A DNA stretch of 64,000 bases, taken from Algibacter sp. L1A34 (GTDB taxonomy: Bacteria; Bacteroidota; Bacteroidia; Flavobacteriales; Flavobacteriaceae). The stretch is taken from NCBI RefSeq assembly GCF_009796805.1, contig NZ_CP047029.1, positions 3,238,001 to 3,302,000 of the forward strand, read 5' to 3'. The translations under genes were made by a program, and so were the position numbers. Positions 34,216-64,000 of this stretch are shown here, one piece after another (position 1 is the stretch's first letter; every line of letters begins with the position of its first letter). Below the pieces are notes generated by a model. The model made no database searches and was not told the origin of the DNA. It saw only the letters and a list, made by a program, of their open reading frames with translations.

Positions 34216-34242
34216 TTAGTAAAGCCAATAAATAAAGAAGTC

Positions 34243-35349
34243 ATGAAACAAAGTATAACATTAGGAAAAGTAACCAATTTTATAGGTCTAGGTTTTTTAA
34301 GCACATTAAAAGATTTATTTACTGGTAAGCTGGAAAGAGAAGATTTAAAAAACCTCCTACGTAAAACAGTTGTTCCACTGGCTTCTATGCTATTATTTAT
34401 TGGACTGTGGCATTTGGGTGCAAAATCTTTGTACAACATTGAAGCCGAACATAAAATTGAAAAAGCACTTACAGATCAAGGACAAGAAGCTGCCGATGCT
34501 TTGCAAGCATGTATTGCATCGGGAGATTCTAGTTGCCAACCTAATACGTTGCCATCTCCAAGCCAGGTTTGGGATTCTTATAAATCGTTATTAAGAGACC
34601 ATAATATTATAAAAGCAGATAAAGCTGCGTTTATAGAAAAAACAGCTGTTTTAAATGAAAAACGATTGGCAGAAGGCAAGGATGCTATTACTTATACGGG
34701 GCGACCATCATTCGTAGATCAAATATTTAGAAGTTTAAAAACGGTATTCGCAGGGTTTTTATTGGCCTTGTTTATTGCTGTGCCCTTGGGGATTTTCATA
34801 GGGTTGAGTCCTACTTTAAAAAGTGCTTTTAATTGGTTTATTCAAATTTTTAAGCCTGTTTCTCCGGTAGTATGGTATTTACTTGTTTTTATGATTGTAA
34901 AAACACTATTGATTGGCTCTAGTGAAGATAGTTCGTTTACTATATCCTTTATAAGTGTTGGTTTATGTTCTATGTGGGCTACTTTGGTTAATACGGCAAT
35001 GGGTGTGGCTACTGTAGATAAAGATTATATTAATGTTGCTAAAGTATTGAAGTTAGGACCATTTCAAAAAATATTTAAAGTTGTACTTCCTTCATCTTTA
35101 CCATTAATTTTTACTGGTTTAAAAATCACATTATCAGTAGCTTGGATGGTTTTAATTGCTATTGAGTTATTGGCGCAGAGTCCTGGTTTAGGGTTGTTTG
35201 TTTGGGAAGAATTCCAAAACGGAGCTAACGATTCTAATGCAAAAATTATTGTAGCCATGTTTGTTATTGGAATCATTGGTTTCTTATTAGATAGAATTAT
35301 GCTAACCATACAAAACTGGGTGTCTTTTGATAAAACAGAAGGGATTTAA
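34243..35349 (+). CDS. nrtB: Nitrate-type ABC transporter permease
   Basis: 368 residues. An N-terminal segment of about 150 residues, holding one helix (LASMLLFIGLWHLG) and a charged linker, precedes the usual five- to six-helix permease core from about 165. The coupling motif is EAA-like (AKVLKLGPFQKIFKVVLPSSLPLIFTGL). The extra N-terminal part makes it longer than typical NrtB of about 275 residues; its role is unknown. It lies 27 bases after nrtA. Confidence 0.87.
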   Translation: MKQSITLGKVTNFIGLGFLSTLKDLFTGKLEREDLKNLLRKTVVPLASMLLFIGLWHLGAKSLYNIEAEHKIEKALTDQGQEAADALQACIASGDSSCQPNTLPSPSQVWDSYKSLLRDHNIIKADKAAFIEKTAVLNEKRLAEGKDAITYTGRPSFVDQIFRSLKTVFAGFLLALFIAVPLGIFIGLSPTLKSAFNWFIQIFKPVSPVVWYLLVFMIVKTLLIGSSEDSSFTISFISVGLCSMWATLVNTAMGVATVDKDYINVAKVLKLGPFQKIFKVVLPSSLPLIFTGLKITLSVAWMVLIAIELLAQSPGLGLFVWEEFQNGANDSNAKIIVAMFVIGIIGFLLDRIMLTIQNWVSFDKTEGI

Positions 35350-35365
35350 TTGAACAGACGAATTT

Positions 35366-35450
35366 GCGTTAGGGATTGCAGTGGAAAGCCCACAGCGTAG
35401 GAACGGAGCGAGGACTTGAAGCGTAAAGCCCGACCCTTGTGGTAACGCCC
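35366..35450. repeat. GC-rich intergenic repeat-like element inside the importer operon
   Basis: An 85-base block richer in G and C than its surroundings, beginning GCGTTAGGG and ending CCTTGTGGTAACGCCC, with imperfect inverted ends (GCGTTA with TAACGC) and inner short stems. Similar blocks (GCGTTAGGG start, CCCGACCC, AACGCCC end) are, to my recollection, scattered between genes in Flavobacteriaceae genomes, but this could not be checked. It separates the permease gene from the first ATPase gene. Confidence 0.6.
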
Positions 35451-35467
35451 AAATAAAACTTAGAAAA

Positions 35468-36319
35468 ATGGCATATTTAGAATTAAATAATATTTATAAA
35501 ACTTACGGTAAAGGCGAAAACGAACCGGAAGTATTATCGAACATTAATTTATCGATAGAAGAAGGTGAGTTTGTTGCTATTGTAGGGTTTACTGGTAGCG
35601 GAAAAACAACTTTGGTAAACTTAATTAACGGTTTAATTACTCCAACTAAAGGTGAGGTTTTATTTAAAGGCGAGCCGGTTATAGGAACTAGCCATGAGCG
35701 TGGTGTGATTTTTCAGAATTACTCGTTATTGCCTTGGTTAACGGTTGGGCAAAATGTGTATATGGCCGTTAAAGAAGCTTTTCCTAAAAAAACTAAAGCA
35801 GAGTTACATGCTATTGTTGCCGATTATGTAGAGATGGTGAGTTTAACGCCCGCTATTAATAAAAGGCCTAAAGAATTATCGGGTGGTATGCGCCAGCGTG
35901 TATCGGTTGCTAGAGCATTAGCTATGAAGCCAGAGATGATTATTATGGACGAACCACTTGGTGCTCTAGATGCATTAACGCGTGGTAATTTACAAGATGA
36001 AATTTTAAATATCTGGGGAAAAGATAAACGTACAGCTCTATTAATTACGAACGATGTGGATGAAGGGATTTATATGGCAGACCGTATTATTCCGTTACGT
36101 CCAGGACCAAATGCAACTTTAGGACCTGAGTTTAAAATTGATATTGAACGCCCTAGAGATAAAACGGAAATGAATGATAATCCTAATTTCAAAAAAACAA
36201 GAAATGCTATTATTGAGTATTTAATGGATATTGGAAATGAAAGGAAAACTGAGGCTAAGGAAGCCATTGTACTTCCGGATTTAAGTCCTAAGGATTTTGT
36301 TAATCAATTTGAATTTTAA
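35468..36319 (+). CDS. nrtC: Nitrate-type ABC transporter ATPase 1, switch histidine replaced
   Basis: 283 residues. Walker [10 protein letters not shown] (40-48), Q-loop Q83, signature LSGGM (137-141) and Walker B MIIMDEP are intact. The switch-loop histidine, normally in ITHD, is N195 ([10 protein letters not shown], codon AAC at 36050). It is probably one half of a heterodimer with the next gene's product, whose signature is LSQGM. The gene symbol follows the NrtA-D layout but it lacks the fused binding domain of cyanobacterial NrtC, so NrtD-type is an alternative name. It overlaps the next gene by one base. Confidence 0.85.
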
Positions 36320-37149
36320 TGAGCGATATAATGGAAAATATAAAAGCAAAACACGTTTTTAAGAACGAACTTTTTCCTTCGAATGAGGTGATGTTAAATT
36401 TAGAGCATTTAAAGAAGGTTTACCCAACGCCTAAAGGAGATTATGTGGTTTTGGAAGATTTAAACTTACAGATTAGAAAGGAAGAGTTTGTTACCATCAT
36501 TGGCCATTCGGGCTGTGGAAAAACAACCATGCTTTCTATGATTGCGGGATTAAATCCTATTTCTGGTGGTCATATATCTGTTTTAGGAAAACACATAAAA
36601 GGACCAGGACCGGATAGAGGTGTTATTTTTCAGGCGCCTAGTTTAATGCCTTGGATGACCTCTTTACAAAATGTGCTACTTGGTGTTAATAAAGTGTTTC
36701 CGCATGCTACAAAAGCACAAAGGCATGATATTGCTAAGTACTATTTACAGAAAGTAGGGTTGGAGGATGCTTTTGATAAAAAGGCATCAGATTTGTCTCA
36801 AGGTATGCAACAGCGTGTAGGTATTGCTCGTGCCTTCGCTATTAAACCTAAAGTGCTATTGCTAGATGAGCCTTTTGGTATGCTAGATTCTTTAACACGA
36901 GGTGAGTTGCAAGATATTTTAATTGAAATTTGGAATAAAGAAAAAATTACAGCAGTTATGATCACGCACGATGTAGATGAAGCTATCTTTTTAGCAGATC
37001 GTGTGGTTATGATGACGAGTGGCCCTAAGGCGAAAATTGGAGATATTTTGAACATTGATTTTGAGCGCCCAAGAACACGAAAATCGGTGTTAGAGCATGA
37101 TGATTACTACAAATATAGAAAACACTTAATAGACTTTTTAGAACACTAA
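36319..37149 (+). CDS. nrtD: Nitrate-type ABC transporter ATPase 2
   Basis: 276 residues. Walker A GHSGCGKTT, signature LSQGMQQR (normally LSGGQ), Walker B VLLLDEP and an intact switch histidine in MITHDVDEA. It would power the NrtB permease with the preceding ATPase. In the dimer the site built from this subunit's Walker motifs and the other's LSGGM is complete, whereas the reverse site has N for H and LSQGM. Start ATG overlaps the stop of the preceding gene. Confidence 0.87.
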   Translation: MSDIMENIKAKHVFKNELFPSNEVMLNLEHLKKVYPTPKGDYVVLEDLNLQIRKEEFVTIIGHSGCGKTTMLSMIAGLNPISGGHISVLGKHIKGPGPDRGVIFQAPSLMPWMTSLQNVLLGVNKVFPHATKAQRHDIAKYYLQKVGLEDAFDKKASDLSQGMQQRVGIARAFAIKPKVLLLDEPFGMLDSLTRGELQDILIEIWNKEKITAVMITHDVDEAIFLADRVVMMTSGPKAKIGDILNIDFERPRTRKSVLEHDDYYKYRKHLIDFLEH

Positions 37150-50307: not shown

Positions 50308-50535
50308 ATGGATATTTTAAAAGAAGCAACAATCTTTGAAAGCGCCAAGATGAGTCATATGTCTACAAGTGATAGAGTGGTGGCTTCAAGAGAAGCAAAG
50401 CGGCTTATTTTAGCAATCAACGAGATTTATAAGAAAACTAAAGATATTACGCTCATGGATGCCATGAAGAGGTTAACAGCTAAGAAAAAGAGGATTGATA
50501 TTCGGTTAAAGGGAAGACCTGATTCAGGTATCTAA
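50308..50535 (+). CDS. Small basic helical protein, unknown
   Basis: 75 residues, charged and helical (REAKRLILAINEIYKKT, MDAMKRLTAKKKRIDIRLKGRP). No family recognised. A near-match promoter box TATATTCG lies at 50274, 34 bases upstream. High lysine/arginine content in the tail would fit nucleic-acid binding or a toxin-antitoxin-type partner, but no partner gene is present. Confidence 0.6.
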   Translation: MDILKEATIFESAKMSHMSTSDRVVASREAKRLILAINEIYKKTKDITLMDAMKRLTAKKKRIDIRLKGRPDSGI

Positions 50536-50803: not shown

Positions 50804-51328
50804 ATGAAAACAATTGATAAAGCCAAATTAGCTTCGAATAAATCTACTGAAATAAAAAAGTATTCAATTTATGATATAGCTATTAATGCTATAGATGGTA
50901 AATCTATTTCTCTTTCAGAATTTAAAGGGAAGAAAATACTTTTTGTTAATGTTGCTTCAAAGTGCGGATTTACAAAACAATATAAGGATTTGCAAATGTT
51001 GAATGATAAGTATAAAGAAGAGCTAGTAATTATTGGCTCACCATGTAATCAATTTGGACAACAAGAGAGAGGTGATGCTTCACAAATCCAAAAATTTTGT
51101 GAACTCAATTTTGGTGTTAAATTTTTACTTACAGAAAAGATTGATGTTAAAGGAGCTAAACAACATTCTTTATATAAGTGGTTGACAACTAAAGGTCTTA
51201 ACGGGAAAATGAGCTCAAGTGTAAAATGGAATTTTCAAAAATATTTAGTTGATGATAATGGCGGTCTTATAGATTACTATTATTCAATAACCAATCCAAT
51301 GAGTTCAAAAATAACTAAGTATTTGTGA
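50804..51328 (+). CDS. Glutathione-peroxidase-family thiol peroxidase
   Basis: 174 residues. Peroxidatic cysteine (in place of selenocysteine) in NVASKCGFTKQY, then the conserved SPCNQFGQQE and the catalytic KWNFQKYLVD. It lacks a signal peptide. Bacterial enzymes of this group usually use thioredoxin, with the cysteine of SPCNQF or FCELN as resolving candidate. Solitary gene behind the GTTT repeat and before a strong terminator. Confidence 0.92.
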   Translation: MKTIDKAKLASNKSTEIKKYSIYDIAINAIDGKSISLSEFKGKKILFVNVASKCGFTKQYKDLQMLNDKYKEELVIIGSPCNQFGQQERGDASQIQKFCELNFGVKFLLTEKIDVKGAKQHSLYKWLTTKGLNGKMSSSVKWNFQKYLVDDNGGLIDYYYSITNPMSSKITKYL

Positions 51329-51433: not shown

Positions 51434-51474
51434 AAAAAACCCCGTATACATAATGTTTACGGGGCTTTTTTTTT
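51434..51474 (+). terminator. Terminator after the glutathione peroxidase gene
   Basis: CCCCGTA (51440-51446) pairs with TACGGGG (51458-51464), flanked by an A run and followed by a long T run. Confidence 0.88.
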
Positions 51475-51905: not shown

Positions 51906-52571
51906 ATGAAATTAACTAAAACTTTAGGGTATCTAGGCCTTATTGCTTCTATTCTTGTAGGTTTGGGCGAATACTTTTTACACTATTCACCCTCAATTTT
52001 AGAACATTCCGAAAACTATCAATTTTTTAAATTTGTATCATTAAATAATCTTACCGCAGGTCATTTCTTGGCCGTTATTGGATTGCCTTTTTATTTTGCA
52101 GGATACATTCATATATACAGAATGTTAAAATCTGGAAACGAAACATTGGCTAGGCTGGTTTTAGCTATAGGGTTTATAGCTTTTGCTGTTGGCGGTGTAT
52201 GGATTGGCTCACGCGCTTCTATTGGTAATATTGTGCATTTAAAAGAGAGTATGGATGCCTCAGTTTACCAAAACCTATTAGCGCATTACACCAACCACAT
52301 GGAAGTATTAGTGCAAGCGCTACGTGTTATTATAGCAACATTATCTATTGTTTTTGCTGTCGCTATTTTAAAAGGAGGCACGTATTACAAAAAATGGATG
52401 GCAATTTTCAACCCTATTGTTATACTTATTTTATTAGTGGTTTTAGGAAAACTAATACCTGCTTTAGGAAAGCACATGCTGCCTATCTTAATGAACGTCA
52501 CTCATTTTATTCTTTTCGGATTATCATTATACCAATTTAACAAATACATTAAAAATCAAAAAAATGCTTAA
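51906..52571 (+). CDS. Polytopic membrane protein, DUF6796-like
   Basis: 221 residues, about six helices. The pattern GYLGLIASILVGLGEYFLHYSP, GHFLAVIGLPFYFAGYIHIYRML and GGVWIGSRA suggests the DUF6796 group of unknown function; the assignment is from memory. First gene of a tight ten-gene operon, overlapping the next gene by eight bases. Confidence 0.68.
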   Translation: MKLTKTLGYLGLIASILVGLGEYFLHYSPSILEHSENYQFFKFVSLNNLTAGHFLAVIGLPFYFAGYIHIYRMLKSGNETLARLVLAIGFIAFAVGGVWIGSRASIGNIVHLKESMDASVYQNLLAHYTNHMEVLVQALRVIIATLSIVFAVAILKGGTYYKKWMAIFNPIVILILLVVLGKLIPALGKHMLPILMNVTHFILFGLSLYQFNKYIKNQKNA

Positions 52572-54231
52572 AAAAATTCTAAAATTCACAGGAATAGTAA
52601 TCCTTTTACTGGTTGTACTCATTCTTGGTTTTTTCTGGCGCGATTCAGTTTCAGATAAATACGACATCACAATAGAAGATAGTAAAATCCCTTTATTCGA
52701 GGACGTTGTAATCGATTTTAAACATCAATATAATGGCGATAAATCGTTACCAATTGCACCTTCAGCTTTAATAGATATTGATAACGATAATATAGATGAA
52801 GTCTTTTTTGGAGGCGGTATGTTTCAAGAAGACGCCATTTTTGCTTATCGAGATAATAAGTTTGTCGATATTTCTTCCGAAGTTAATTTACAGAAAAAAG
52901 GAAACACTTTAACCACGGTTGGTGTCGTTTCTGCCGATTTTGATAACAACGGATTTACAGATATTATACTTGGTAGAGAAGATGGGTTAACAATCTATTA
53001 TAATACCAATGGAAAATTTACCGCTAAAAAGATTGACACACCTATAAACGAAAAATCAACACCTGCGGGATTAACGGTTGGAGATATTGATAAAGATGGT
53101 GATTTAGATATTTTTATGGCAACCTACCTTAAAAAAGAGTTAATGGAAGGTCAAACCATTTTTGAAGATTATACTTATGGTTCTACAAGTGAATTACTTT
53201 TAAATACTGGAAACGAAAACTTTGTAAGTATTACTAAACAAGCTGGCTTAGACTATGTTCATAATACGTTTCAAGGTGTATTGGTCGATATTGATAACGA
53301 TTCTTGGTTAGATTTAGTTGTGGTACATGATACCGGTGAAGCAAGAACGTATAGAAATAATGGAGACCTAACATACACTATGAAGCCAAACCCATTAACC
53401 AAAAAATTTGCCTACCCAATGGGATTAGCAGTTGGTGATTATAATAATGATGGTTTGGTAGATTTTATGTTTTCTAATACAGGAAGTACGTTACCAAGAG
53501 CTTTAGCTAAAGGTGATATAAAAGATGCATCTTTATTTAATGAAAAATGGATTCTGTTTAGAAATGATGGCGATTTTAAATTTACAGATACAGCCGAAGA
53601 AACTAAAATTGCAGATTATGAATTTTCTTGGGGATGTACTTTCGCAGATATGAATAACGACGGTTTACAAGATTTAATGGTAGCTGAAAATTATGTGGAT
53701 TTTGCACCTAATAAACTATTTAAGTTACCTAGTAGATTTTTAGTTCAGAAGGAAGATGGCACGTTTGCACCAACCGAAGAAAAAAGTGGTGTTGTTAACC
53801 CATATTACGCTATAACATCATTAGTAAGTGATTTTAATCAAGATGGTTATTTAGACATGATTTGGGTAAATATCGATTCGCCATCTTTAGCCTACATCAA
53901 TAAAGGCGGAACTAATAATTATCTACAAGTAGATTTGGGAGAATCTGTAAATGCACAAGGAGCAAAAGTAACAGTAACTACGCCAACAAAAACGTTAACC
54001 GATTGGTTGGTAAGTGGAGAAGGTTTAGCTAGTGATCAAACGGCATTACTTCAATTTGGATTAGGTAAAGAATCTACTGTTCTGAATGTAAAAGTCCTTT
54101 TGGCAGACAACAGGGAAATTAGTCTTGATAACCCAAAAATTAACTCGATTATAGATTTAAAATCGCAGGTTAAAGTTCAAGTTGCTCAAGAAATAGATGT
54201 AGATACAGAAACAATCGAAGAAAGTAAGTAA
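52564..54231 (+). CDS. FG-GAP/VCBS-repeat protein with ASPIC/UnbV-type C-terminal domain
   Basis: 555 residues. One N-terminal helix (GIVILLLVVLILGFFW) anchors or directs it to the periplasm. Beta-propeller repeats with calcium-binding loops DIDNDNIDE, DFDNNGFTD, DIDKDGDLD, DIDNDSWLD, DYNNDGLVD, DMNNDGLQD and DFNQDGYLD follow. The last 100 residues (NNYLQVDLG, QGAKVTVTT) resemble the ASPIC/UnbV domain of CRTAC1 proteins. Function is unknown; propellers of this type often bind partners or substrates. Three bases separate it from the next gene. Confidence 0.82.
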   Translation: MLKKILKFTGIVILLLVVLILGFFWRDSVSDKYDITIEDSKIPLFEDVVIDFKHQYNGDKSLPIAPSALIDIDNDNIDEVFFGGGMFQEDAIFAYRDNKFVDISSEVNLQKKGNTLTTVGVVSADFDNNGFTDIILGREDGLTIYYNTNGKFTAKKIDTPINEKSTPAGLTVGDIDKDGDLDIFMATYLKKELMEGQTIFEDYTYGSTSELLLNTGNENFVSITKQAGLDYVHNTFQGVLVDIDNDSWLDLVVVHDTGEARTYRNNGDLTYTMKPNPLTKKFAYPMGLAVGDYNNDGLVDFMFSNTGSTLPRALAKGDIKDASLFNEKWILFRNDGDFKFTDTAEETKIADYEFSWGCTFADMNNDGLQDLMVAENYVDFAPNKLFKLPSRFLVQKEDGTFAPTEEKSGVVNPYYAITSLVSDFNQDGYLDMIWVNIDSPSLAYINKGGTNNYLQVDLGESVNAQGAKVTVTTPTKTLTDWLVSGEGLASDQTALLQFGLGKESTVLNVKVLLADNREISLDNPKINSIIDLKSQVKVQVAQEIDVDTETIEESK

Positions 54232-54234
54232 GAA

Positions 54235-54504
54235 ATGAAGTTTATAAAACAATTATTAGGAAAAGGTAAACAGGAGACGATCAATGATTTATCTAAGGGC
54301 TATTGTCCTAATTGTTGGGGGCATCAAGAGTACGATAACCTCATAAGAGAAAAGTATGAAGATGCACAGATAAGTGTTAATAACCATAGTGCTAATTATG
54401 CATTTGTACAGAATTTCATGGTAACACATCTAAATGGCATAAAATTAAAGAGCACAGTTAAAGGTACAGAATGCCCTACATGTGTGGTTGTAAATAACAA
54501 ATAA
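54235..54504 (+). CDS. Small protein with two CPxC motifs
   Basis: 89 residues. CPNC (about 23-26) and CPTC (about 81-84) near each end could hold zinc or act as redox pairs. No signal peptide or membrane helix is seen. No family was recognised. It shares one base with the next gene (TAATG) and sits three bases after the propeller gene. Confidence 0.65.
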   Translation: MKFIKQLLGKGKQETINDLSKGYCPNCWGHQEYDNLIREKYEDAQISVNNHSANYAFVQNFMVTHLNGIKLKSTVKGTECPTCVVVNNK

Positions 54505-54881
54505 TGCTAAAAAGAATTGCATATTATGCTATTCTTGGTATGCTCATAATAGGCGTATATGGAGCTGGCGGATTAGTTGTGGAAGAATTTAAAACAGGTG
54601 AAGGCTGCCCAAAAATAATGGGCATCCCCATGTGTTTGGTTATTCTATTCTGTTTTCTTGTTCCGTTAATAGTACATCTTTTAAAAAAGAAGAATGTCTT
54701 GTACTTTTTATTTACAGGCTTAGCAGGTAGTATTGCTTTAATGGCTTCAGTCATGCAGTTTTTAGGTTATGCCGAATGCCCGAAAACAGCTTCAGGAACG
54801 CCAATGTGTTATTATTCTTTATTGCTTTTTAGTAGTTTAATAGTACTAAAAATTTACCATCAAAAACCAAACAAATTATGA
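54504..54881 (+). CDS. Four-helix membrane protein with duplicated CPK...PMC motif
   Basis: 125 residues with four hydrophobic helices. Two similar halves each have helix, then GCPKIMGIPMC or ECPKTASGTPMC, then helix. The paired cysteines (spacing eight and nine) face the same side by topology and could form disulfides or bind metal. No family was recognised; similarity to thiol-redox membrane proteins is only conceptual. It overlaps the following gene by four bases. Confidence 0.62.
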   Translation: MLKRIAYYAILGMLIIGVYGAGGLVVEEFKTGEGCPKIMGIPMCLVILFCFLVPLIVHLLKKKNVLYFLFTGLAGSIALMASVMQFLGYAECPKTASGTPMCYYSLLLFSSLIVLKIYHQKPNKL

Positions 54882-57800
54882 GTATTTTAAAAAGTTTTAG
54901 AAAAAATATTTTATATTTTTTCCTACTGACGGTTTCCATTGTTTTGGGACAAAAAAACGATAAATCAATCTATCTAATAGCCAATACAGGTACAGCAAAT
55001 GATACTAATGTATTGGATGAAATTATCAAGGATTCTAAAACATCCGAAAATTCTATATTATTATTGCTTGGAAATTCAGTAAACGACAATGATAGTAGTA
55101 AAGATTTTGAACAAAATATTTTATCTCAATTAGATAAGCTGTCTTTGTTCAATGGGGAAGCTTATTTTATGCCTGGAAAAAACGAATGGGTAATTAATGG
55201 ACACAAAGGTGTTCAATCTATTGAAAACCATATTCAAAAAAATAGTAATTCAAAATTTTATCCGGACGATGGTGAGGCTATAAAACATAAAGATATATCT
55301 GAAAATATAGTGCTTATTACCGTCGATACACAGTGGTTTCTGGAAGATTGGGATAAGCATAGTTATATAAATGATGATAGTGAAATTAAAAATAGAACAT
55401 TATTTTTCTTAGAATTTGAGAATAGAATAAAGAAAGCCTATGGTAAAACAATTCTAGTTGCATTACATCATCCTATTGAAACAAATACAAAACAAGGGCT
55501 GTTAAGTAATGTAGGAGGAGTTAGGTCGCACGATTTTCAGAACAAGAAATACAGAAAACTTAGAAACAGATTAAAAACGATTGCTCAGGCTGCTGGTAAT
55601 ATCATTTTTATATCTGGGAAAGATAAAAATTTACAATATATAGATAAAGGCATACCTCAAATTATTAGTGGGGCGGTTGGAAAGACTAAAAATATTAGTA
55701 ACGTTAGTGAAGGTGATTTTGGTCTTGCAGAAAACGGCTTCGCAAAGTTAGAAATAGGTGATAATGGTGCTGCACAAGTAAAATTTTATACTGTAAAAAA
55801 GGGTGTGTCTACTGAAGTTTTTACATCTAAAATTTTAGAAGGAGATGAAGACGATAGTCAAATCAACCATTCTTTTGAAGAAACGTTTCCAAAAACGCAA
55901 TCGGCTTCAATCTATACAGAGGAAGCTATTGATAAAAGTAGTTTTTACAAAACAGTTTGGGGAGAACACTATAGACCGTTTTACGGAACAAATGTAAATG
56001 TACCAGTAGTTTTATTAGATACATTAATGGGCGGACTTTCTCCTATAAAAAGAGGTGGAGGTCAACAATCGAAATCGCTTAGATTAGAAGATAAAAATGG
56101 AAAGCAGTTTGTTATGAGGGCCATAAAAAAGAGCACAGCTAAGTTTTTGCAAGCCAATGCTTTTCCTAATACTTTTATAGAAAATTCACTTGATGATACA
56201 ACTATAGATAAGTTTTTATCAGATTTTTATACTACATCAAATCCTTACGCGGCATTTGCAATTGGTGGATTATCAAGTGCAGTAGGTGTTAATCATACAA
56301 ATCCGATATTATATTACATTCCTAAGCAAAAAACATTAGGTACGTTTAATGAAGATTTTGGTGATGAGTTATACATGATAGAGGAACATGTTGGAAGTAC
56401 GCAGGCAGGTTTAGAAAGTTTTGGAAATCCTAAACAAATATTGAGTACAGCTGATGTTTTACAGGAAATTCATAGATCTGGAAAATCTGTTGTTGATGAG
56501 CCATCATACATTAAAGCGAGACTTTTTGATATGCTTTTAGGAGATTGGGACAGACATGAAGATCAATGGCGTTGGGCTTATTATGATGATGAGGATGGAA
56601 CATCACATTGTGAGCCTATTCCTAGAGATAGAGATCAGGCATTTTCAAAATATGATGGAGCTCTAATTTCTTTTCTAACCCGTTCCATTCCGGCGCTTCG
56701 TAAAATGCAATCTTATGATGAAGAAATTAGAAGTGTAAAATGGTTAGCATCTTCTCCTTATCATTTAGATTTAATGCTGGTTAATTCTTCTGGTTGGGAT
56801 GAATGGGAAAAACAAGCACAACACATTCAAGAGCATCTTACAGATGAAGATGTAGAGAAAGCTTTTGAAGCTTTTCCATTAGAAGTAAGAGGTGAAGTTA
56901 TTGATGATATAAAAGTAAAACTTAAAGGAAGACGGTCTAATTTGGTTAAAATAGCAAAAGCGTATTACGAGTATTTAAATAAATTTAAAGTTATTGTTGG
57001 AACTCAAAAAACAGATACATTTTCTATAACACGCCTTCCAAATGGAGATACTGCTATAAAAATAGATCGTAAAGACATGGGGCTTTTAAACAGAACTTTT
57101 TCTCATGATATTACCAAAGAAATATGGATTTATGGTCTAGACGGAAAAGATACTTTTGTTGTAGATGGAGAAGGAGATCATCTTATTAAAATTAGAATAG
57201 TTGGTGGAAAGAAAAACGATATATACGATTTTAAAAACACCAAAAAAGTAAAACTTTATGATTACAAGAGTAAAGAAAATACCATTGTAAACAAAAAATC
57301 TAAAAAGTGGCTCGTTGATGATTATGAATTAAATAATTACGACCATAAAAAAGTAAAACATAATTTTAGTCAAATACTACCTTTATTAGGTGTAAATCCA
57401 GATGATGGCGTTAAACTAGGGGTTCTAAATAACTTTTCATACTTCGGGTTACAACGCAACGAGTTCACTTATAAACATAGTATAAGTGCGGCATATTACA
57501 CAGGGAACTCAGGGTATGATTTATCTTATAAAGGTGAATTTTCAAATATTTTTCATAAATGGAATTTTGGAGTAGAAGGTAAGTACACGAGTCCAAACTT
57601 TGCACAGAACTTCTTTGGTTTTGGTAATGAAACAAGCTATGATAAAGATGAGGTAGAACTCGATTTTAATAGAGTAAGTATAAAAGAATGGAATGCTGCA
57701 GTGTCATTAATATGGCATGGTGAAAATGGAGGCTCTTTTTATTTTAAACCTTTAATAGAATCTTTTGAAGTTGAAAATGTAGAAGATAGATTTGTTAATA

Positions 57801-58408
57801 TTTTACCTGAAGAAGCAACCCTCTTTGAAAAACAAATTTATGTTGGTAGTGAAGTAAACTATACGTTTAAAAACAGAAATGATATTGCTTATCCTACAAT
57901 GGGCTTAGATGCAGGAATTACAGTTGGTTATAAAACTGTAATTGATGGAGGAAATGATGATAGTTCTTTTGGTTATATTAAACCACATATCGCTGTTAAT
58001 CACAAGTTAAATAAAAGTGGTAGCTTAGTATTTGCAACAAAATTAGGAGGAGAAGCTATTCTTGGAGATGATTTTGAATTGTATCATGCAGCACAATTAG
58101 GAGGTGGAGAAAACCTTCGTGGGTACAGAAAAGAACGTTTTATAGGTGATTATTCAGTGTTTCAAAGTACCGATTTAAGATTGGAAATAGGTGATTTTAA
58201 CAGTGCTATTATTCCAACAAAATATGGTGTAACTGGTGGTTTTGATTATGGTCGAGTTTGGTTGAAAAATGACACGTCAGATAAATGGCACAATAGTTTA
58301 GGAGGTTCTTTTTGGATTAGCGGCTTGGAAACATTTACACTAAATGCAGGATATTATTCAAGTGCCGATGGAGGAATAATCTCAGTTGTGCTTGGTTTCT
58401 CTTTTTAA
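54878..58408 (+). CDS. Outer-membrane barrel protein with degenerate phosphoesterase and kinase-like regions
   Basis: 1176 residues. Signal peptide, then a calcineurin-like phosphoesterase fold (about 30-270) in which most metal ligands are lost: ANTG at 35-38 where GDAG is usual, GNS at 65-67 for GDN, GKNEW at 100-104 for GNHDW, GKDKN at 247-251 for GHEHN; H197/H198 remain. A middle region (about 370-700) has KQFVMRAIKK, GDWDRHEDQW and PIPRDRDQAF, similar to motifs of Fam20/HipA-type kinase folds. The last 370 residues form a BamA/surface-antigen-type barrel (GGGENLRGYRKERF). The family is known as a flavobacterial metallophosphoesterase; the loss of ligands is unusual. Kinase similarity is inference. 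Confidence 0.78.
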   Translation: MSILKSFRKNILYFFLLTVSIVLGQKNDKSIYLIANTGTANDTNVLDEIIKDSKTSENSILLLLGNSVNDNDSSKDFEQNILSQLDKLSLFNGEAYFMPGKNEWVINGHKGVQSIENHIQKNSNSKFYPDDGEAIKHKDISENIVLITVDTQWFLEDWDKHSYINDDSEIKNRTLFFLEFENRIKKAYGKTILVALHHPIETNTKQGLLSNVGGVRSHDFQNKKYRKLRNRLKTIAQAAGNIIFISGKDKNLQYIDKGIPQIISGAVGKTKNISNVSEGDFGLAENGFAKLEIGDNGAAQVKFYTVKKGVSTEVFTSKILEGDEDDSQINHSFEETFPKTQSASIYTEEAIDKSSFYKTVWGEHYRPFYGTNVNVPVVLLDTLMGGLSPIKRGGGQQSKSLRLEDKNGKQFVMRAIKKSTAKFLQANAFPNTFIENSLDDTTIDKFLSDFYTTSNPYAAFAIGGLSSAVGVNHTNPILYYIPKQKTLGTFNEDFGDELYMIEEHVGSTQAGLESFGNPKQILSTADVLQEIHRSGKSVVDEPSYIKARLFDMLLGDWDRHEDQWRWAYYDDEDGTSHCEPIPRDRDQAFSKYDGALISFLTRSIPALRKMQSYDEEIRSVKWLASSPYHLDLMLVNSSGWDEWEKQAQHIQEHLTDEDVEKAFEAFPLEVRGEVIDDIKVKLKGRRSNLVKIAKAYYEYLNKFKVIVGTQKTDTFSITRLPNGDTAIKIDRKDMGLLNRTFSHDITKEIWIYGLDGKDTFVVDGEGDHLIKIRIVGGKKNDIYDFKNTKKVKLYDYKSKENTIVNKKSKKWLVDDYELNNYDHKKVKHNFSQILPLLGVNPDDGVKLGVLNNFSYFGLQRNEFTYKHSISAAYYTGNSGYDLSYKGEFSNIFHKWNFGVEGKYTSPNFAQNFFGFGNETSYDKDEVELDFNRVSIKEWNAAVSLIWHGENGGSFYFKPLIESFEVENVEDRFVNILPEEATLFEKQIYVGSEVNYTFKNRNDIAYPTMGLDAGITVGYKTVIDGGNDDSSFGYIKPHIAVNHKLNKSGSLVFATKLGGEAILGDDFELYHAAQLGGGENLRGYRKERFIGDYSVFQSTDLRLEIGDFNSAIIPTKYGVTGGFDYGRVWLKNDTSDKWHNSLGGSFWISGLETFTLNAGYYSSADGGIISVVLGFSF

Positions 58409-58435
58409 ATCTAACATAAAAACATAAATAAAACC

Positions 58436-60046
58436 ATGAAAAAACCAGTAGTAATTGCTCAAGTAAGTACTTTAGAAAATAAGCAACCGGAACACGCCCT
58501 AGTAAATGGGTTGGATTTAGTAATCGTGAAATTTGATGATGATATTTCTGTACTCTACGGAAGATGTTTACACAGAGGCGCACTAATGTCCGACGGTCAC
58601 GTAGATGGTCATAATTTAATTTGTGGTGTTCATGGATGGGATTATCGTGTAGATTCAGGTGTTTCAGAATATAATAATAAAGAAGTACTTCATAAATTTT
58701 CAACTAAAATTGAAGGTGATGATTTATTTGTAGATGCATTCGAAATTGAATCTTATTTGGTAAATAGCCCACAACCATTTAATCGTGATGCTTATTTAGG
58801 TGCTTATGCAGATACGCATCCGGAAGAAACAGAACCATACACTGGTTATATAAAGGAACTGGCTACAAATGGATTGAAAAATATTGGACATCATGGATTT
58901 TCTGCATCTATGGGAGTAGATAGAGATACGCTTCCTAAATGGAACGATATTCAGTTTTTACCAGCACAATTAGCATCAAGACCTTTATTAGATCATGAAG
59001 ATGTTGCGACTAAAGTTGTTATTGGTCCAAACGCAAAAAAACCGCTAGAACTAGACATGCCACTTTTTGTAAGTGATATGAGTTTTGGAGCATTATCTCG
59101 AGAAGCTAAAATAGCATTATCTAAAGGAGCGCAATTAGCAGGAACAGGAATTTGTTCTGGTGAAGGTGGTATGCTGCCAGAAGAACAAGCTAGCAATTCT
59201 AAATATTTTTACGAATTAGCTTCGGCGCAGTTTGGGTTCTCTTGGGATAAATTAGATAACGTACAAGCCTTTCACTTTAAAGGTGGGCAAGGTGCAAAAA
59301 CAGGAACTGGTGGTCACTTACCAGGATCTAAAGTAAGTAAAGAAATTGCAGAGGTTAGAGGTTTAAAAGAAGGGGAAACAGCTATTTCACCTGCTGCTAA
59401 TCCAAATTTTCATACGGTTGAAGACTTTAAAGTATTTGCAGATAAAGTAAGAGCACGTACAGGAGGAATTCCTATTGGGTTCAAAATTGCTGCAAGTCAT
59501 ATTGAAAAAGATATCCAATTTGCGCTAGATGTTGGTGTAGACTATATTATTCTCGATGGTCGTGGTGGCGGAACAGGTTCTGCTCCAACCATTTTAAGAG
59601 ATCATATTAATGTGCCAACCATTCCAGCATTAGCAAGAGCAAGAGCTTATATGGATAAAGTAGGAGCAACAGGTGTCACTTTAGTAATTACTGGAGGTTT
59701 GCGTGTTGCCGAAGATTTTTCAAAAGCAATGATGCTTGGAGCAGATGCTATAGCAGTATCTAATTCTGCATTACAAGCTATTGGTTGTTTAGGGATGCGC
59801 GCTTGCGGATCTAATAACTGTCCGGTTGGTATTGCAACTCAAAAAGAATCTTTGCGTAGTCGAATAATTATAGACTCTTCTGCTAAACAATTACAAAATT
59901 ACTTTGAAGCAACAAACGATTTAATAAGGGTTGTAGCACGTGCTTGTGGTTACGATGATGTTACTAAGTTTAATCCAGACGACCTTTCAACCTTTGATAG
60001 AGATATACATTATTTAACAGGAATTAACTACGCAGGTTTAAAATAA
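58436..60046 (+). CDS. Rieske ferredoxin domain fused to a glutamate-synthase-type FMN domain
   Basis: 536 residues. Rieske [2Fe-2S] site C44-x-H46 and C63-x2-H66 within residues 1 to 105. The rest is the GltB-type FMN/synthase barrel: MSFGALSREAKIALSKGA, GEGGMLPEEQ, FKGGQGAKTGTGGHLPG, DGRGGGTGSAP and the [3Fe-4S] motif C451-x5-C457-x4-C462 (CGSNNCPVG). The glutaminase domain of true glutamate synthase is absent. Known relatives are FMN-binding glutamate-synthase-family proteins. The reaction is unknown; electron input may come through the fused Rieske cluster. 27 bases after the barrel gene. Confidence 0.87.
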   Translation: MKKPVVIAQVSTLENKQPEHALVNGLDLVIVKFDDDISVLYGRCLHRGALMSDGHVDGHNLICGVHGWDYRVDSGVSEYNNKEVLHKFSTKIEGDDLFVDAFEIESYLVNSPQPFNRDAYLGAYADTHPEETEPYTGYIKELATNGLKNIGHHGFSASMGVDRDTLPKWNDIQFLPAQLASRPLLDHEDVATKVVIGPNAKKPLELDMPLFVSDMSFGALSREAKIALSKGAQLAGTGICSGEGGMLPEEQASNSKYFYELASAQFGFSWDKLDNVQAFHFKGGQGAKTGTGGHLPGSKVSKEIAEVRGLKEGETAISPAANPNFHTVEDFKVFADKVRARTGGIPIGFKIAASHIEKDIQFALDVGVDYIILDGRGGGTGSAPTILRDHINVPTIPALARARAYMDKVGATGVTLVITGGLRVAEDFSKAMMLGADAIAVSNSALQAIGCLGMRACGSNNCPVGIATQKESLRSRIIIDSSAKQLQNYFEATNDLIRVVARACGYDDVTKFNPDDLSTFDRDIHYLTGINYAGLK

Positions 60047-60052
60047 TATATC

Positions 60053-60796
60053 ATGGAAAAACAAATGCATTTAGCAGCACAATATTTAGCTGCAGCTGGA
60101 ATTAGTTTTCTAGAAAAGGAGTCAGACGACAGTCATACAAACCTAGGTTTTAACATAGGAAATGGATGTCTTTCTACGCATACACTTTCCGAAAATGGAG
60201 ATGTATTATGTTTAAATTACAAAAGTTTTACACTAGAGTGGAAATCCAATCAAGAAACAAAAACGTTTAGTTTAGATGGTGCAACGCATGCTGAAGTTTT
60301 AAAATGGCTTACAGATACTTCTAAAGCATTCTTAAATAAAACATATCAATATAAATTTCATTACGATTTACCTTATGCAATAGACGATGCGTTTACATTC
60401 AAATTAGCAGATGTGTCTAAGTTGAAAGCGTTACTGCATTTGCGTGTTTTGGCACAATTGGTTCTTGAAAATATAGATAAACAATACAATCTTAATACTT
60501 CAATTAGAATCTGGCCACATCACTTCGATACAGGTATTTATAGCGCTCTACCAAATTCTGATATTACTATTGGATTAGGTTTAGCAATACCAGATAGTAT
60601 TTGTAACAACCATTATTTATATATCTCTGGATACAAAAATGGAAATACCATCGACACTTCTAAATTACCAAAATTAGAATCTGGAGAGTGGAAATCTAAT
60701 GGATTTACTGGAGCTATTCTCGATACAAATACTATCGTAGAATCTCAAGGTGTCGCATTTTTTAAAGAAGCAATTAACCAACTAAAGAACAATTAA
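60053..60796 (+). CDS. DUF5996-like protein
   Basis: 247 residues, soluble. Segments SIRIWPHHFDTGIYSAL and ITIGLGLAIPDSICNNHYLYISGY resemble the DUF5996 group (IRLWPHHFD motif), assigned from memory with moderate certainty. Histidine-rich WPHHFD suggests a metal site. Six bases after the Rieske/FMN gene and two before the Grx/TrxR gene, so it belongs to the operon, but its role is unknown. Confidence 0.62.
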   Translation: MEKQMHLAAQYLAAAGISFLEKESDDSHTNLGFNIGNGCLSTHTLSENGDVLCLNYKSFTLEWKSNQETKTFSLDGATHAEVLKWLTDTSKAFLNKTYQYKFHYDLPYAIDDAFTFKLADVSKLKALLHLRVLAQLVLENIDKQYNLNTSIRIWPHHFDTGIYSALPNSDITIGLGLAIPDSICNNHYLYISGYKNGNTIDTSKLPKLESGEWKSNGFTGAILDTNTIVESQGVAFFKEAINQLKNN

Positions 60797-60798
60797 TA

Positions 60799-62205
60799 AT
60801 GAATACAATAGATTTATATGGTGCAGATTGGTGCCCAGACTGCCAAAGGGCAAAAGCATATTTAAAAGAGAATAATGTTGATTTTAATTTTATTGATGTC
60901 GATTTAGATAAAGATGCAACGGCGAGAGTAGAGGGTATTAACAATGGGAAACGTATTATACCAACCATTCTTATTAACGAAAAACCATATACCAATCCAG
61001 ATAATAGTGTTTTAGCAAACGTATTAGGGATTAATGAACAAGGACGTGTTATTTTGTATGGTGCAGATTGGTGTCCAGATTGCCAACGTGCAAAAGGATA
61101 TTTGCAGGACAATCATATCAACTTTCAATATATAGAAGTCGATAAATATGATTGGGCTACTCAAAAAGTAGAAGAAATTAATAACGGAAAACGTATTATT
61201 CCTACCTTATTTATTGGTGATAAAAGTTATACCAATCCAGATAATTCGATTCTAAAAGATGTATTAAACATTGGTAAAGAATCAGAAAAAAAGGTTTACG
61301 ATAGTATTATTGTTGGTGCTGGTGCAGCTGGATTAACGGCTTCTATTTACATTCAACGTGATCGTTTTAGTTCTTTAATTCTTGAAAAAAAGAATATTGG
61401 AGGTAATGCCTTTTTAACACAAAAAATTGAAAACTATCCTGGTTTTACAGAGATTTCTGGCCCAAAATTAATGCAACGTATGGCAGAGCAAGCCAAGGTA
61501 TACGGAGCAAGCATTGAAACTGGTGTTGAGGTAAAAAGCATTTCTAAAAACGGTAACTTATTTGATATAGATTCTAATATGGGCGCATACCAAAGTAAAT
61601 CTGTGGTATTAGCTTTAGGTTCTACATATCGCAAATTAGGTATTACAAATGAAGAAGATTTAGTAGGTGCAGGTATTCACTTCTGTGCAACCTGTGATGG
61701 TGCTTTTTATAGAGATAAAGAAGTGCTTGTAATTGGTGGAGGAAATAGTGCTTTGGAAGAAGGTATATTTTTAGCAGGTTTTTGTAAAAAAGTAACGATT
61801 GTAAATCGTGGTTCAGAATTTTCAGCTTCTGAAACTTATATTGAAAAACTACCATCTATAAAAAATATAGAAACTCACCTTAATAAAGAATCCTTAGCAT
61901 TTACTAAGGATGAAAATGGCAATTTTAAAGGTTTGGAAGTTAAAGATAAAGCAACAGGAGAAACCGAAGAATTAACAGCAGATGGTGCTTTCATTTTTAT
62001 AGGATTAATTCCAAACACAACTAGTGTAAAAGGTGTTATTGACTTGAACAAAAACGGATTTATTACCACAACAGCTTTAGGAGAAACCAATGTAGCTGGT
62101 GTTTTTGCTGCTGGAGATTGTCGCGAAGGTGCAATTGCACAAGTAGCAGCCGCTACAGGCGAAGGTGTATTGGCAAGTTATGGTGTGCGTAATCACTTAA
62201 AATAG
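60799..62205 (+). CDS. Double glutaredoxin-thioredoxin reductase fusion
   Basis: 468 residues. Two glutaredoxin-like domains in tandem (about 1-78 and 83-158), each with GADWCPDCQRAK active sites (C12/C15 and C92/C95) and TNPDNS. From about 167 a thioredoxin-reductase unit: FAD loop VGAGAAGLTA, redox pair C296-A-T-C299, NADPH loop GGGNSALEE and GDCREGAI. Length from 167 on is near that of E. coli TrxR. NADPH electrons can pass within one chain to the fused redoxins, and on to neighbours such as the CPxC proteins. The tandem duplication of the redoxin part is the notable feature. Confidence 0.92.
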   Translation: MNTIDLYGADWCPDCQRAKAYLKENNVDFNFIDVDLDKDATARVEGINNGKRIIPTILINEKPYTNPDNSVLANVLGINEQGRVILYGADWCPDCQRAKGYLQDNHINFQYIEVDKYDWATQKVEEINNGKRIIPTLFIGDKSYTNPDNSILKDVLNIGKESEKKVYDSIIVGAGAAGLTASIYIQRDRFSSLILEKKNIGGNAFLTQKIENYPGFTEISGPKLMQRMAEQAKVYGASIETGVEVKSISKNGNLFDIDSNMGAYQSKSVVLALGSTYRKLGITNEEDLVGAGIHFCATCDGAFYRDKEVLVIGGGNSALEEGIFLAGFCKKVTIVNRGSEFSASETYIEKLPSIKNIETHLNKESLAFTKDENGNFKGLEVKDKATGETEELTADGAFIFIGLIPNTTSVKGVIDLNKNGFITTTALGETNVAGVFAAGDCREGAIAQVAAATGEGVLASYGVRNHLK

Positions 62206-62209
62206 AAAC

Positions 62210-62581
62210 ATGGAAAACTGGCATTTACCAATTACAATTGTTCCTGGCTTAGGTTTACTCATTCTTTCTACTTCAAACTTAATGGTAACATTGAGTAATG
62301 AAATAAGTGGGATGATTGAAAATTCTAATAAAAAATCAATTACTGCAAGAAAATTGAAACAACTAAGGTTGCTTAATATGGCTATGGTTTTTTTCTATGT
62401 GGCTGTAGCACTTTTATTAATTTCTGCCGTTATTAATGGCTTATATGAAGTAGGAAAAACGTCTTTATATACAAGCGTTTTGGCAATTATTTTTGCGCTC
62501 ATTGGTCTTATTTCTTTGATTATTTATTCTTTTAGAGCGGTAACCATTCGTCAAAATCAATTTAAAAGCAAACTAGATTAA
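62210..62581 (+). CDS. DUF2721-like membrane protein
   Basis: 123 residues with three hydrophobic segments. The start PGLGLLILSTSNLMVTLSNEI and a basic middle (SITARKLKQLRLLNM) are reminiscent of DUF2721; moderate certainty. Role unknown. Four bases after the Grx/TrxR gene and 12 before the Rieske/TPP gene. Confidence 0.6.
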   Translation: MENWHLPITIVPGLGLLILSTSNLMVTLSNEISGMIENSNKKSITARKLKQLRLLNMAMVFFYVAVALLLISAVINGLYEVGKTSLYTSVLAIIFALIGLISLIIYSFRAVTIRQNQFKSKLD

Positions 62582-62593
62582 ACCTGAAATATT

Positions 62594-64000
62594 ATGAAAA
62601 AAACAACAAAATGGTATAGTGTACTAAAAGATAAGAAAACTTTGCCTGAAGGACGTGTACAAACGGTAACAGCAGGTCATCAAGGTGTATGTTTAACACA
62701 TTACGATGGTAAGTTTTCTGCATTAGATAATAAATGTCCGCATCAAGGTGGTCCATTAGGAGAAGGTTCTATTGAAAACGGGATGCTGCGTTGCCCTTGG
62801 CACGGTTGGGATTTCGATCCATGTTCTGGTTTACCACCAGGAGGTTTTGATGATGGCGTTAAAACCTTTGAAGTAAAAGAAGAAGGTGACGAAATTTTTG
62901 TTGGTGTTTTGGAAGAAGAAGAACATCAAGATACCATTTCGGATGTGATGATGCAGACCATGGTAAATTGGGGAGTTGATACAGGTTTTGGTATGGTTGG
63001 CCATTCTAACTTAGCAGTTGCCGATGCTATGATGCGATTAGAGCAACAAGATAAATTTCAGTTTTTTGGTATTCGTCACGAAGGTGCAGCCGCTTTTGCA
63101 GCTTCAGCTTATGGAAAATTAACTGGGAAACCTGCAGTTTGTTTTGGTATTGCAGGACCAGGTTCTACCAATATGTTTACTGGAATGTGGGATGCAAAAG
63201 TAGACCGATCACCAATGTTAGTGCTCTCTGGTCAAGTAAATACACAAGTATTAGGCACAGGTGCCTTTCAAGAAGTAGATTTAGTTGGTGCGTTTCAAAC
63301 CGTAGCCAATTTTAACCATAGCGTACAACAAAACTCAAAGCATAGCGAGTTAATGAGTTTAGCCATAAAAAGTGCTTTATTAAACAGAGATGTGTCTCAT
63401 ATAACATTTCCAGATGAAGTCGCATTTATGCCAAAACCAGAAGGAGAAGAAGCGCAAACACCAGAAGATAGAATAACACCTATGAATATTTCGCCGCCAA
63501 GGCAAATGGTTGCAAAAGCCGTAGGCATGTTAGAAAATGCTAAAATGCCAGCAATTATTGTTGGTCACGGTGCTCGTTTTCACATGGAAGCTATTACCGC
63601 TTTCGCGGAAAAGTTAAACTGCCCAGTAATTACGACATTTAAAGGAAAAGGATTAATAGCAGATAATCATTCATTAGGCTGTGGTGTACTAGGAAGAAGT
63701 GGTACACCAATAGCCTCTTGGTTTATGAACGAAAGTGATTTACTGCTAGTCTTTGGAGCTTCGTTCTCTAATCATACAGGTATTACACCCAAAAAACCAA
63801 TTATTCAGGTGGATTACGATCCTGCAGCTTTAAGTAAGTTTCATAAAGTAGATGCAGCACTTTGGGGAGAAATTTCCGAAACTTTAGCATTAATTGAAGA
63901 ACAAACGCAAGGAAAACTGAATACAATCGACAGACGTCCAGAGATTGCAGAACGTTGGGCGATTTGGCAAGAAGAAAAAGCAAGTCGATTAAAAGACGAA
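62594..64000 (+). CDS. Rieske domain fused to thiamine-pyrophosphate enzyme (partial, runs off window)
   Basis: 469 codons from ATG 62594, no stop before the window ends. Rieske site C48-x-H50 and C67-x2-H70 within residues 1 to 105. From about 110 on, a TPP enzyme of the acetolactate-synthase/pyruvate-oxidase group: the PYR domain has catalytic glutamate in FGIRHEGAAAFAASAYGK, AGPGSTNMFTG, and the central domain follows (PAIIVGHGARFH). The PP domain that holds TPP lies beyond the edge. Electron flow from the TPP/FAD centre to the Rieske cluster is conceivable. Tightly linked (12 bases) with the rest of the operon, so the operon goes on. Confidence 0.9.
   Translation, partial: MKKTTKWYSVLKDKKTLPEGRVQTVTAGHQGVCLTHYDGKFSALDNKCPHQGGPLGEGSIENGMLRCPWHGWDFDPCSGLPPGGFDDGVKTFEVKEEGDEIFVGVLEEEEHQDTISDVMMQTMVNWGVDTGFGMVGHSNLAVADAMMRLEQQDKFQFFGIRHEGAAAFAASAYGKLTGKPAVCFGIAGPGSTNMFTGMWDAKVDRSPMLVLSGQVNTQVLGTGAFQEVDLVGAFQTVANFNHSVQQNSKHSELMSLAIKSALLNRDVSHITFPDEVAFMPKPEGEEAQTPEDRITPMNISPPRQMVAKAVGMLENAKMPAIIVGHGARFHMEAITAFAEKLNCPVITTFKGKGLIADNHSLGCGVLGRSGTPIASWFMNESDLLLVFGASFSNHTGITPKKPIIQVDYDPAALSKFHKVDAALWGEISETLALIEEQTQGKLNTIDRRPEIAERWAIWQEEKASRLKDE

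Follow-up and report, generated by a model that had tools for sequence, protein, structure and literature searches.

What would a flavobacterium gain from two enzymes that each carry a Rieske domain of their own, encoded almost side by side? This question is raised by one end of a 64,000-nucleotide stretch of the genome of Algibacter sp. L1A34 (contig NZ_CP047029.1, positions 3,238,001 to 3,302,000; G000:C1:3238001-3302000 in our genome numbering), which we call the window and whose numbering is used throughout unless a coordinate is given as G000:C1. From position 51906 to the window's end run ten open reading frames (ORFs), g1 to g10, all on the + strand. They include g6, in which a Rieske domain precedes the flavin mononucleotide (FMN) barrel of glutamate synthase (Rieske-GltS), and g10, in which one precedes a thiamine diphosphate (TPP) enzyme (Rieske-TPP). 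The original prediction had taken all ten genes for a dedicated redox pathway with an internal thiol-reductase chain. We arrive at a different reading, to which we assign a probability of about 0.58: an accessory, stress-type operon of Bacteroidota, arranged round two flavoenzymes that would each use a ferredoxin-like Rieske domain of their own.

The domain make-up of g10 was correctly called, as its Pfam profiles are Rieske followed by TPP_enzyme N, M and C. An alignment of 85 copies was used to assess residue conservation. The Rieske ligands C48/H50/C67/H70 (C-x-H...C-x2-H), the catalytic Glu163 and the FQE motif are kept in 85/85, as are D550, N576 and N577 of the TPP motif (GDG...NN), with G551 present in 83/85. 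By sequence, the nearest solved relatives in the Protein Data Bank (PDB) are Escherichia coli PoxB (EcPoxB) and then the pyruvate oxidase of L. plantarum (LpPOX). The active-site segment at residues 581-587 reads GK-I-(S/T)-KEQ in all 85 copies, where EcPoxB has GFVAMEM and LpPOX has GFIKDEQ; since its Glu falls at the position of the PoxB and LpPOX Glu, it is a Glu of the oxidase kind, though the Phe has been replaced by Lys. The segment GMVRQ(W/Q), a mark of the acetohydroxyacid synthase (AHAS) family, is not found in g10; GMVRQ is present in all 24 of the non-Rieske TPP matches checked from our phylum search, followed by W in 18, Q in 5 and E in 1. Judged by sequence and by this segment, the TPP part of g10 is nearer to the pyruvate oxidases than to the acetolactate synthases. 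Its best NCBIfam model is likewise a pyruvate oxidase (PRK08611), scoring 393.7 bits where the cut-off is 742; for PRK09124 the score was 291.3 bits against 792, and the NCBIfam models among the matches listed all stayed below their cut-offs. When the AlphaFold model of g10 (mean predicted local distance difference test score, pLDDT, 89.9) was searched with Foldseek, the first rows by E-value were LpPOX and the truncated PoxB structure 3eya, the latter having the highest target template-modelling score (TM-score, about 0.90) among the matches listed. None of the 85 copies reaches past the C-terminus of the window's g10, and the part of EcPoxB (572 amino acids (aa) at full length) that aligns to g10 ends at residue 527; a C-terminal peptide like that of PoxB, where it has a membrane role, is therefore missing.

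The earlier description of g6 as a Rieske-FMN synthase likewise stands. Its Glu_synthase profile reached 281.9 bits against a cut-off of 20.4, and Rieske and Glu_synthase were the only domains over the Pfam cut-offs, with no glutaminase domain among them; no gltD-like gene was recognised by eye among its neighbours. The Rieske ligands C44, H46, C63 and H66 are kept in 51 of 52 aligned rows, the remaining row having a gap, and the cysteines of a 3Fe-4S cluster (C451/C457/C462, C-x5-C-x4-C) in 52 of 52. The alignment also shows Lys282, Gln285, Lys288, Arg308 and Glu243 to be kept, which we take to be residues with known roles in glutamate synthases. Solved relatives of the Rieske part are the toluene-4-monooxygenase ferredoxin and NdmA. 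The genome also has a relative at G000:C1:4461075-4462085, whose match spans the barrel only, and three Rieske matches altogether: g6, g10 and one NirD-like protein, the last assigned by eye. Upstream of the window, at G000:C1:3220217, a nitrite-reductase-like gene is followed by the gene for this NirD-like Rieske protein (also by eye).

We determined how widely the two fusions occur, and whether they occur together, in two genome samples that both count the window genome. Across 198 genomes of the phylum, a full-length match to Rieske-TPP was found in six, the five besides the window genome being 59–68% identical to it; the weaker matches to g10 among those listed begin at residue 103 or later and are without the Rieske part. 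One of these five copies, in genome G088 (L037:15172-17121), has an in-frame stop close to its end. Across 249 genomes of the family, the 136-residue N-terminus of Rieske-TPP (E<1e-60) was found in 23, in frames of 649–673 aa in 22 genomes and of 453 aa in one (G281), and Rieske-GltS was found in 29, one copy (G341) being in three pieces. Both fusions are present in 18 of these genomes, Rieske-TPP alone in 5, Rieske-GltS alone in 11 and neither in 215 (Fisher p 8e-16, kinship ignored). Each of the 18 genomes with both has them on a single contig, less than 2.6 kb apart in 17 genomes and 10.5 kb apart in one. The pairing of the two Rieske fusions is thus not confined to this strain, as it might have been; the gene-neighbourhood search showed the linkage to be wide, and the two adjoin in many other Bacteroidota.

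Nearly all of the best 80 Rieske-TPP loci from a scan of named genomes are titled Bacteroidota, the nearest named relatives being mostly Flavobacteriaceae, and many of the genera are known as marine. The loci from outside the phylum are one from Shewanella hanedai and, from metagenome-assembled genomes, two from Acidobacteriota and one each from Chlorobiota, Calditrichia and FCB, taxon names which for such assemblies may be wrong; a quick tree placed the Shewanella copy among those of Bacteroidota. Over 52 loci, inter-protein distances of Rieske-TPP correlate with those of Rieske-GltS (r 0.51, matched in 0 of 2000 permutations). Five pairs of core families gave r 0.51 to 0.87, the Rieske-TPP/Rieske-GltS pair being the lowest and the others ranging from 0.62 to 0.87, as co-inheritance would give.

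To separate recurring partners from local additions, ORFs of 84 relatives (the best 80 loci and four whole-genome loci, many of them on short contigs) were clustered together with those of the window. Rieske-GltS recurs in 52 of the 84 (one of them, L121, a weak 29% match), the family of g7 in 45, an NhaP-type antiporter in 36, the DUF2721-like g9 in 29 and a YHS protein in 17. When only those relatives are counted whose contigs extend 6 kb or more to either side of Rieske-TPP (49), the counts are 36 for Rieske-GltS, 35 for g7, 30 for NhaP and 24 for the DUF2721-like protein. Where these well-flanked loci have both fusions (36), Rieske-GltS is on the same strand as Rieske-TPP in 35; in Nonlabens xylanidelens (L073), some 9 kb separate the fusions, which lie on opposite strands. 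Apart from Rieske-TPP and Rieske-GltS, the families that persist are those of g7, NhaP and the DUF2721-like g9. Much rarer are the outer-membrane protein g5 (14/84), an ion channel (12/84), the cysteine-pair protein g3 (8/84), the propeller g2 (5/84) and the Grx-Grx-thioredoxin reductase g8 (5/84); g2, g3, g5 and g8 look like local additions.

Some families recur in the relatives only. A membrane protein resembling MsrQ or a ferric reductase, with a C-terminal Rieske domain, is present in 26/84 (e.g., L036:11533-13424 and L052:12595-14436); the three Rieske matches of the window genome do not include it. The copy of L115 (357 aa) has Ferric_reduct and Rieske profiles and reaches 47 bits for MsrQ against a cut-off of 130. 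The same 26 loci encode an unnamed partner of this protein, the members seen having a CYFGVM..HxxCA..C motif. A Crp-type regulator family is found in the loci of 18/84 relatives but not in the 30 kb of the window genome that were clustered; 13/84 loci encode a YpdA-type disulphide reductase, mostly on the opposite strand.

Within the genus, the operon is accessory. In a comparison of five genomes, the window genome and four mates, the Rieske-TPP N-terminus was found in the window genome alone, and the glutathione peroxidase (GPx) encoded upstream of the run (50804-51328) was found in none of the four mates searched. The polyphosphate kinase of the operon (G000:C1:3306945-3308936) is a second copy without a close match in the four mates; the one kinase found in each mate resembles it at 39–40%, and a further kinase of the window genome at about 40%. 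A gene just outside the block is 91–98% identical in the four mates, and DNA synteny with two of them is seen only from about position 71896 on (92 kb of the genome compared, matches >150 bases). The left edge of the block was not located with 3.4 kb of one mate's DNA from beyond the synteny point; elsewhere in the window genome, this piece matches at 71% over 637 bases, plus a 61-base match.

That the setting is one of ionic and oxidative stress is suggested by the neighbours. In the window genome these include GPx, an HtrA-type protease, the antiporter, the channel and polyphosphate kinase. A partner scan, in which Pfam was run on 122 of the 136 other run members (25 of 126 families listed), found DUF427 (8), malic enzyme (6), Redoxin (5), MsrA (3), OsmC (3), HtrA-type trypsin (3) and aldo/keto reductase (2). 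The malic enzyme gene stands two genes after g10 in L062 and L064 (by eye), and that some relatives encode it in their runs agrees with pyruvate being the substrate of g10. Parallels come from Bacillus subtilis, in which yerD and ydaP both appear in one published gene list of the SigB regulon, with malS, rpe, ohrB, nhaX and trxA (PMC7824861); a table in another paper enters YdaP as 'general stress protein, ethanol stress' and YerD as 'protection against paraquat stress' (PMC5717166), and two further papers group YerD with osmotic resistance (PMC7522486) and name YdaP as a PoxB homologue (PMC4476798).

On the reading that we favour, Glu163 of g10 would activate the thiamine diphosphate, which would then decarboxylate pyruvate or a close 2-oxoacid. 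Two electrons would pass one at a time through a presumed flavin adenine dinucleotide (FAD) to the N-terminal Rieske cluster and from there to a soluble or membrane partner; they would go to the Rieske cluster, and not to membrane quinone, because g10 does not have the membrane peptide with which E. coli PoxB ends. In g6, the Rieske domain would take the role of a separate ferredoxin and feed the 3Fe-4S/FMN centre, where a reductive amination of the glutamate-synthase type would take place. NhaP, the channel, HtrA, polyphosphate kinase and YHS, with OsmC, MsrA, redoxins and DUF427 in relatives, would provide the ionic and oxidative stress setting in which the operon would be induced. A bolder form of the proposal, in which the anchor-less Rieske pyruvate oxidase would serve a soluble two-enzyme circuit of an undescribed kind by passing electrons to other Rieske proteins, above all Rieske-GltS and in relatives also the Rieske-MsrQ-like acceptor, with g7 as an accessory, and would so supply reducing power independent of NAD(P)H under stress, is taken as a whole unlikely.

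Several observations weigh against the stress-operon reading itself. Lys582 is invariant (85/85) where EcPoxB and LpPOX have the Phe of their GF(V/I) segment, so that g10 may depart from the pyruvate oxidases in its electron path or even in the reaction it catalyses. Target TM-scores for g10 among the matches listed were 0.78–0.81 for LpPOX, 0.82–0.88 for the pyruvate:quinone oxidoreductase PQO, 0.78–0.87 for AHAS and acetolactate synthases and up to 0.88 for hydroxyacyl-CoA lyases; with AHAS and the lyases a few hundredths away from the pyruvate oxidases, the fold alone leaves the class of g10 undecided. Five of the 23 genomes with Rieske-TPP are without Rieske-GltS, and 11 have Rieske-GltS without Rieske-TPP; since each is found alone, neither needs the other. 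The association with stress rests on neighbours at the Rieske-TPP loci and on the Bacillus proteins; most of the 122 scanned proteins are not of stress-linked families, the near-identical L106 and L116 were counted twice, and run members without a plain stress link include YjeF_N (5), TauE (3) and AraC-type regulators (3). Finally, YerD is only presumed to be GltS-like and a homologue of g6.

The tight linkage of exactly these two fusions invites the idea of a direct relay, in which the Rieske pyruvate oxidase reduces Rieske-GltS by way of the similar Rieske domains of the two; pyruvate oxidation would then pay for reductive glutamate synthesis, and neither NAD(P)H nor free ferredoxin would be needed. 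The redox potentials of such centres allow it, and the distances of the two proteins do correlate; shared ancestry alone could give the same, however, the four other pairs correlate better, each gene occurs alone in the 5 and 11 family genomes just mentioned, and in 26 of the 84 relatives a further Rieske protein could be a partner instead. We therefore regard a direct relay as unlikely. The Rieske domains might also conduct no electrons at all and act as redox or iron sensors that switch their enzymes. Both are N-terminal with standard ligands, that of g6 resembles soluble monooxygenase ferredoxins in the PDB, and a stress operon is a likely site for redox sensing. Yet in the flavin redox families to which both enzymes belong, the known members depend on a partner outside the protein, for example quinone or ferredoxin; this fits a conduit, and a sensor role appears distinctly unlikely to us.

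In another alternative, g10 would act as an acetolactate synthase, or as some other TPP lyase without redox chemistry, and guard against acid by converting pyruvate to acetoin precursors; its Rieske domain would be regulatory, and NhaP and the ion channel would assist with pH. We consider this quite improbable. Such enzymes are of the same superfamily, the AHAS, acetolactate synthase and hydroxyacyl-CoA lyase folds match g10 almost as well, so that the fold scores do not disfavour the assignment, and antiporter and channel genes are close by; but the replacement of the AHAS GMVRQ segment in all 85 copies and the pyruvate oxidases as best solved sequence relatives speak against it, and acetolactate chemistry needs no electron carrier. 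Very improbable, lastly, is the original view of ten genes that form one dedicated pathway, with electrons passing along a chain of thiol reductases. All ten genes do stand in a single closely spaced run, and Flavivirga aquimarina (L062) keeps the order g2-g6, g8, g10, YHS, without g7 and g9. On its distribution among the relatives, however, we reject the thiol chain as a core part: the reductase g8, the propeller g2, g3 and the outer-membrane protein have the low counts given above, and g1 and g4 occur in only 2/80 and 4/80 loci.

The limits of the unit were also drawn too narrowly at first. The features are given in Table 1.

Table 1. The ten genes of the run and its start boundary (window coordinates)
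Feature	Coordinates	Strand	Basis
Terminator-like hairpin with T-run, start boundary of the unit	51440..51474	+	by eye
g1, DUF6796 membrane protein, 221 aa	51906..52571	+	PF20599, E 2.5e-18
g2, FG-GAP/UnbV_ASPIC propeller, 555 aa	52564..54231	+	PF13517, PF07593
g3, soluble protein with two CxxC pairs, 89 aa	54235..54504	+	ORF
g4, small membrane protein with cysteines, 125 aa	54504..54881	+	ORF
g5, degenerate phosphatase-like N-part and Omp85-type C-terminal barrel, 1176 aa	54878..58408	+	
g6, Rieske [2Fe-2S] and glutamate-synthase FMN barrel, 536 aa, core	58436..60046	+	PF00355, PF01645
g7, 247 aa, core	60053..60796	+	no Pfam match; family in relatives
g8, Grx-Grx-thioredoxin reductase fusion, 468 aa	60799..62205	+	Grx, Grx, Pyr_redox_2
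g9, DUF2721-like membrane protein, 123 aa, frequent partner	62210..62581	+	PF11026, E 0.011
g10, Rieske [2Fe-2S] and pyruvate-oxidase-like TPP enzyme, 649 aa, core	62594..64000 (true end 64543)	+	Pfam, alignment, fold search

The close spacing of the ten genes is confirmed by the ORF coordinates, with overlaps of 1 to 8 bases (g1/g2, 8; g3/g4, 1; g4/g5, 4) or gaps of 2 to 27 (g2-g3, 3; g5-g6, 27; g6-g7, 6; g7-g8, 2; g8-g9, 4; g9-g10, 12). As a unit, however, the ten hold only in part: their strand and spacing are real, but g10 runs 543 bases past the window and the natural unit is longer. The YHS gene, whose protein also passes NF041384, lies 15 bases 3' of g10, and 168 bases after it come the genes for the HtrA-type protease, ion channel, NhaP-type antiporter, a DUF6268 protein, polyphosphate kinase and a PycTM-type protein, with gaps of at most 9 bases from one to the next. 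At the other end, the hairpin separates the unit from the GPx gene; its loop exceeds the limit of 8 in our simple terminator scan, which began at 50500 and does not list it. In that scan (50500-67000, both strands) no internal terminator stood out clearly, with 9 terminator-like sites where 7.1 ± 2.4 were expected, and a simple scan of the + strand from 47001 to 77000 found the Bacteroidota-type promoter pattern only within the coding sequence of g5 and at no intergenic site. We infer a single transcript for the unit. Elsewhere in the window, nitrate/cyanate-type ABC transporter genes were recognised by eye at 32821-37149.

The PycTM-type protein at the end of the run (PF18967, PADLOC PycTM; L005:3936-4562, or 70936-71562 in window numbering and thus outside the window) matches PycTM and 2TM effector models. 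Its family is found in 10/84 relatives, in several of which the gene directly follows that of NhaP. A Pycsar or defence reading was rejected, as no cyclase was recognised among the ORFs read on either side.

Among the partners, g7 had been labelled DUF5996-like, a label rejected on profile search: g7 has no Pfam match at E<=1, and PF19459 matches nothing in the genome at that threshold. Its model is highly confident (pLDDT 96.4, predicted template-modelling score 0.91), and as no PDB structure matched at E<=0.001 (best E 0.15, TM-score 0.26), the predicted fold may be new. In 46 sequences of the family, W154 and D159 are invariant inside a near-invariant WPHHFD motif. For g9, the DUF2721 label is weak, its best Pfam match being PF03631 (E 0.00056, sub-threshold), and gains some ground from one relative of its family that passes the DUF2721 cut-off. 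Pfam profiles upheld the labels of g1 as a membrane protein, g2 as a propeller and g8 as a Grx-Grx-thioredoxin reductase fusion. No Pfam match was found for g3 at E<=0.001, nor any family above its cut-off for g4. The account of g5 as an outer-membrane pseudo-phosphatase is borne out less firmly: its barrel matches Omp85_fam alone, at 61.9 bits under a cut-off of 200, and its phosphatase-like half has no profile and looks inactive by eye, the metal-ligand motifs being gone.

Among the matches listed, by titles and abstract openings, there was no openly licensed PMC paper on either Rieske fusion, nor did we find a description of the conserved neighbourhood in which these variants of known enzymes stand or a report on its chemistry. 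To our knowledge, the stress roles of YdaP and YerD are unexplained. A Rieske domain fused to a relative of YdaP and, in an adjoining gene, to a GltS barrel of what we presume to be the YerD kind would offer testable electron partners for both, and the case would show how a pyruvate oxidase can work off the membrane. The g7 family, being persistent and having a confident predicted fold without a match, is a good structural target.

Compared with known systems, g10 shares with PoxB, LpPOX, PQO of C. glutamicum and YdaP of B. subtilis the three-domain TPP fold, the catalytic Glu and the FQE motif, and with the pyruvate oxidase family the Glu in the segment after the TPP motif and the lack of the AHAS GMVRQ segment; it differs from that family in its N-terminal Rieske domain, its invariant Lys for Phe and its lack of a PoxB-like C-terminal extension. 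Like ferredoxin-dependent and NADPH glutamate synthases, and single-domain GltS-like proteins of which B. subtilis YerD is a presumed example, g6 has the FMN barrel and the cluster cysteines C-x5-C-x4-C, but it is without a glutaminase domain or a recognised gltD partner and has a Rieske domain fused in front. In relatives only, Ferric_reduct and Rieske domains in one protein recall the heme-binding membrane subunit MsrQ/YedZ combined with a Rieske ferredoxin, although this protein stays under the MsrQ cut-off. We know of no SigB-type sigma factor shared by Bacteroidota. As in the SigB regulon of B. subtilis, enzymes of the YdaP type and, by presumed kinship, of the YerD type are both present; but the genes of the SigB regulon are scattered and share an alternative sigma factor, whereas here Rieske-fused forms of the two enzymes are brought together in one operon.

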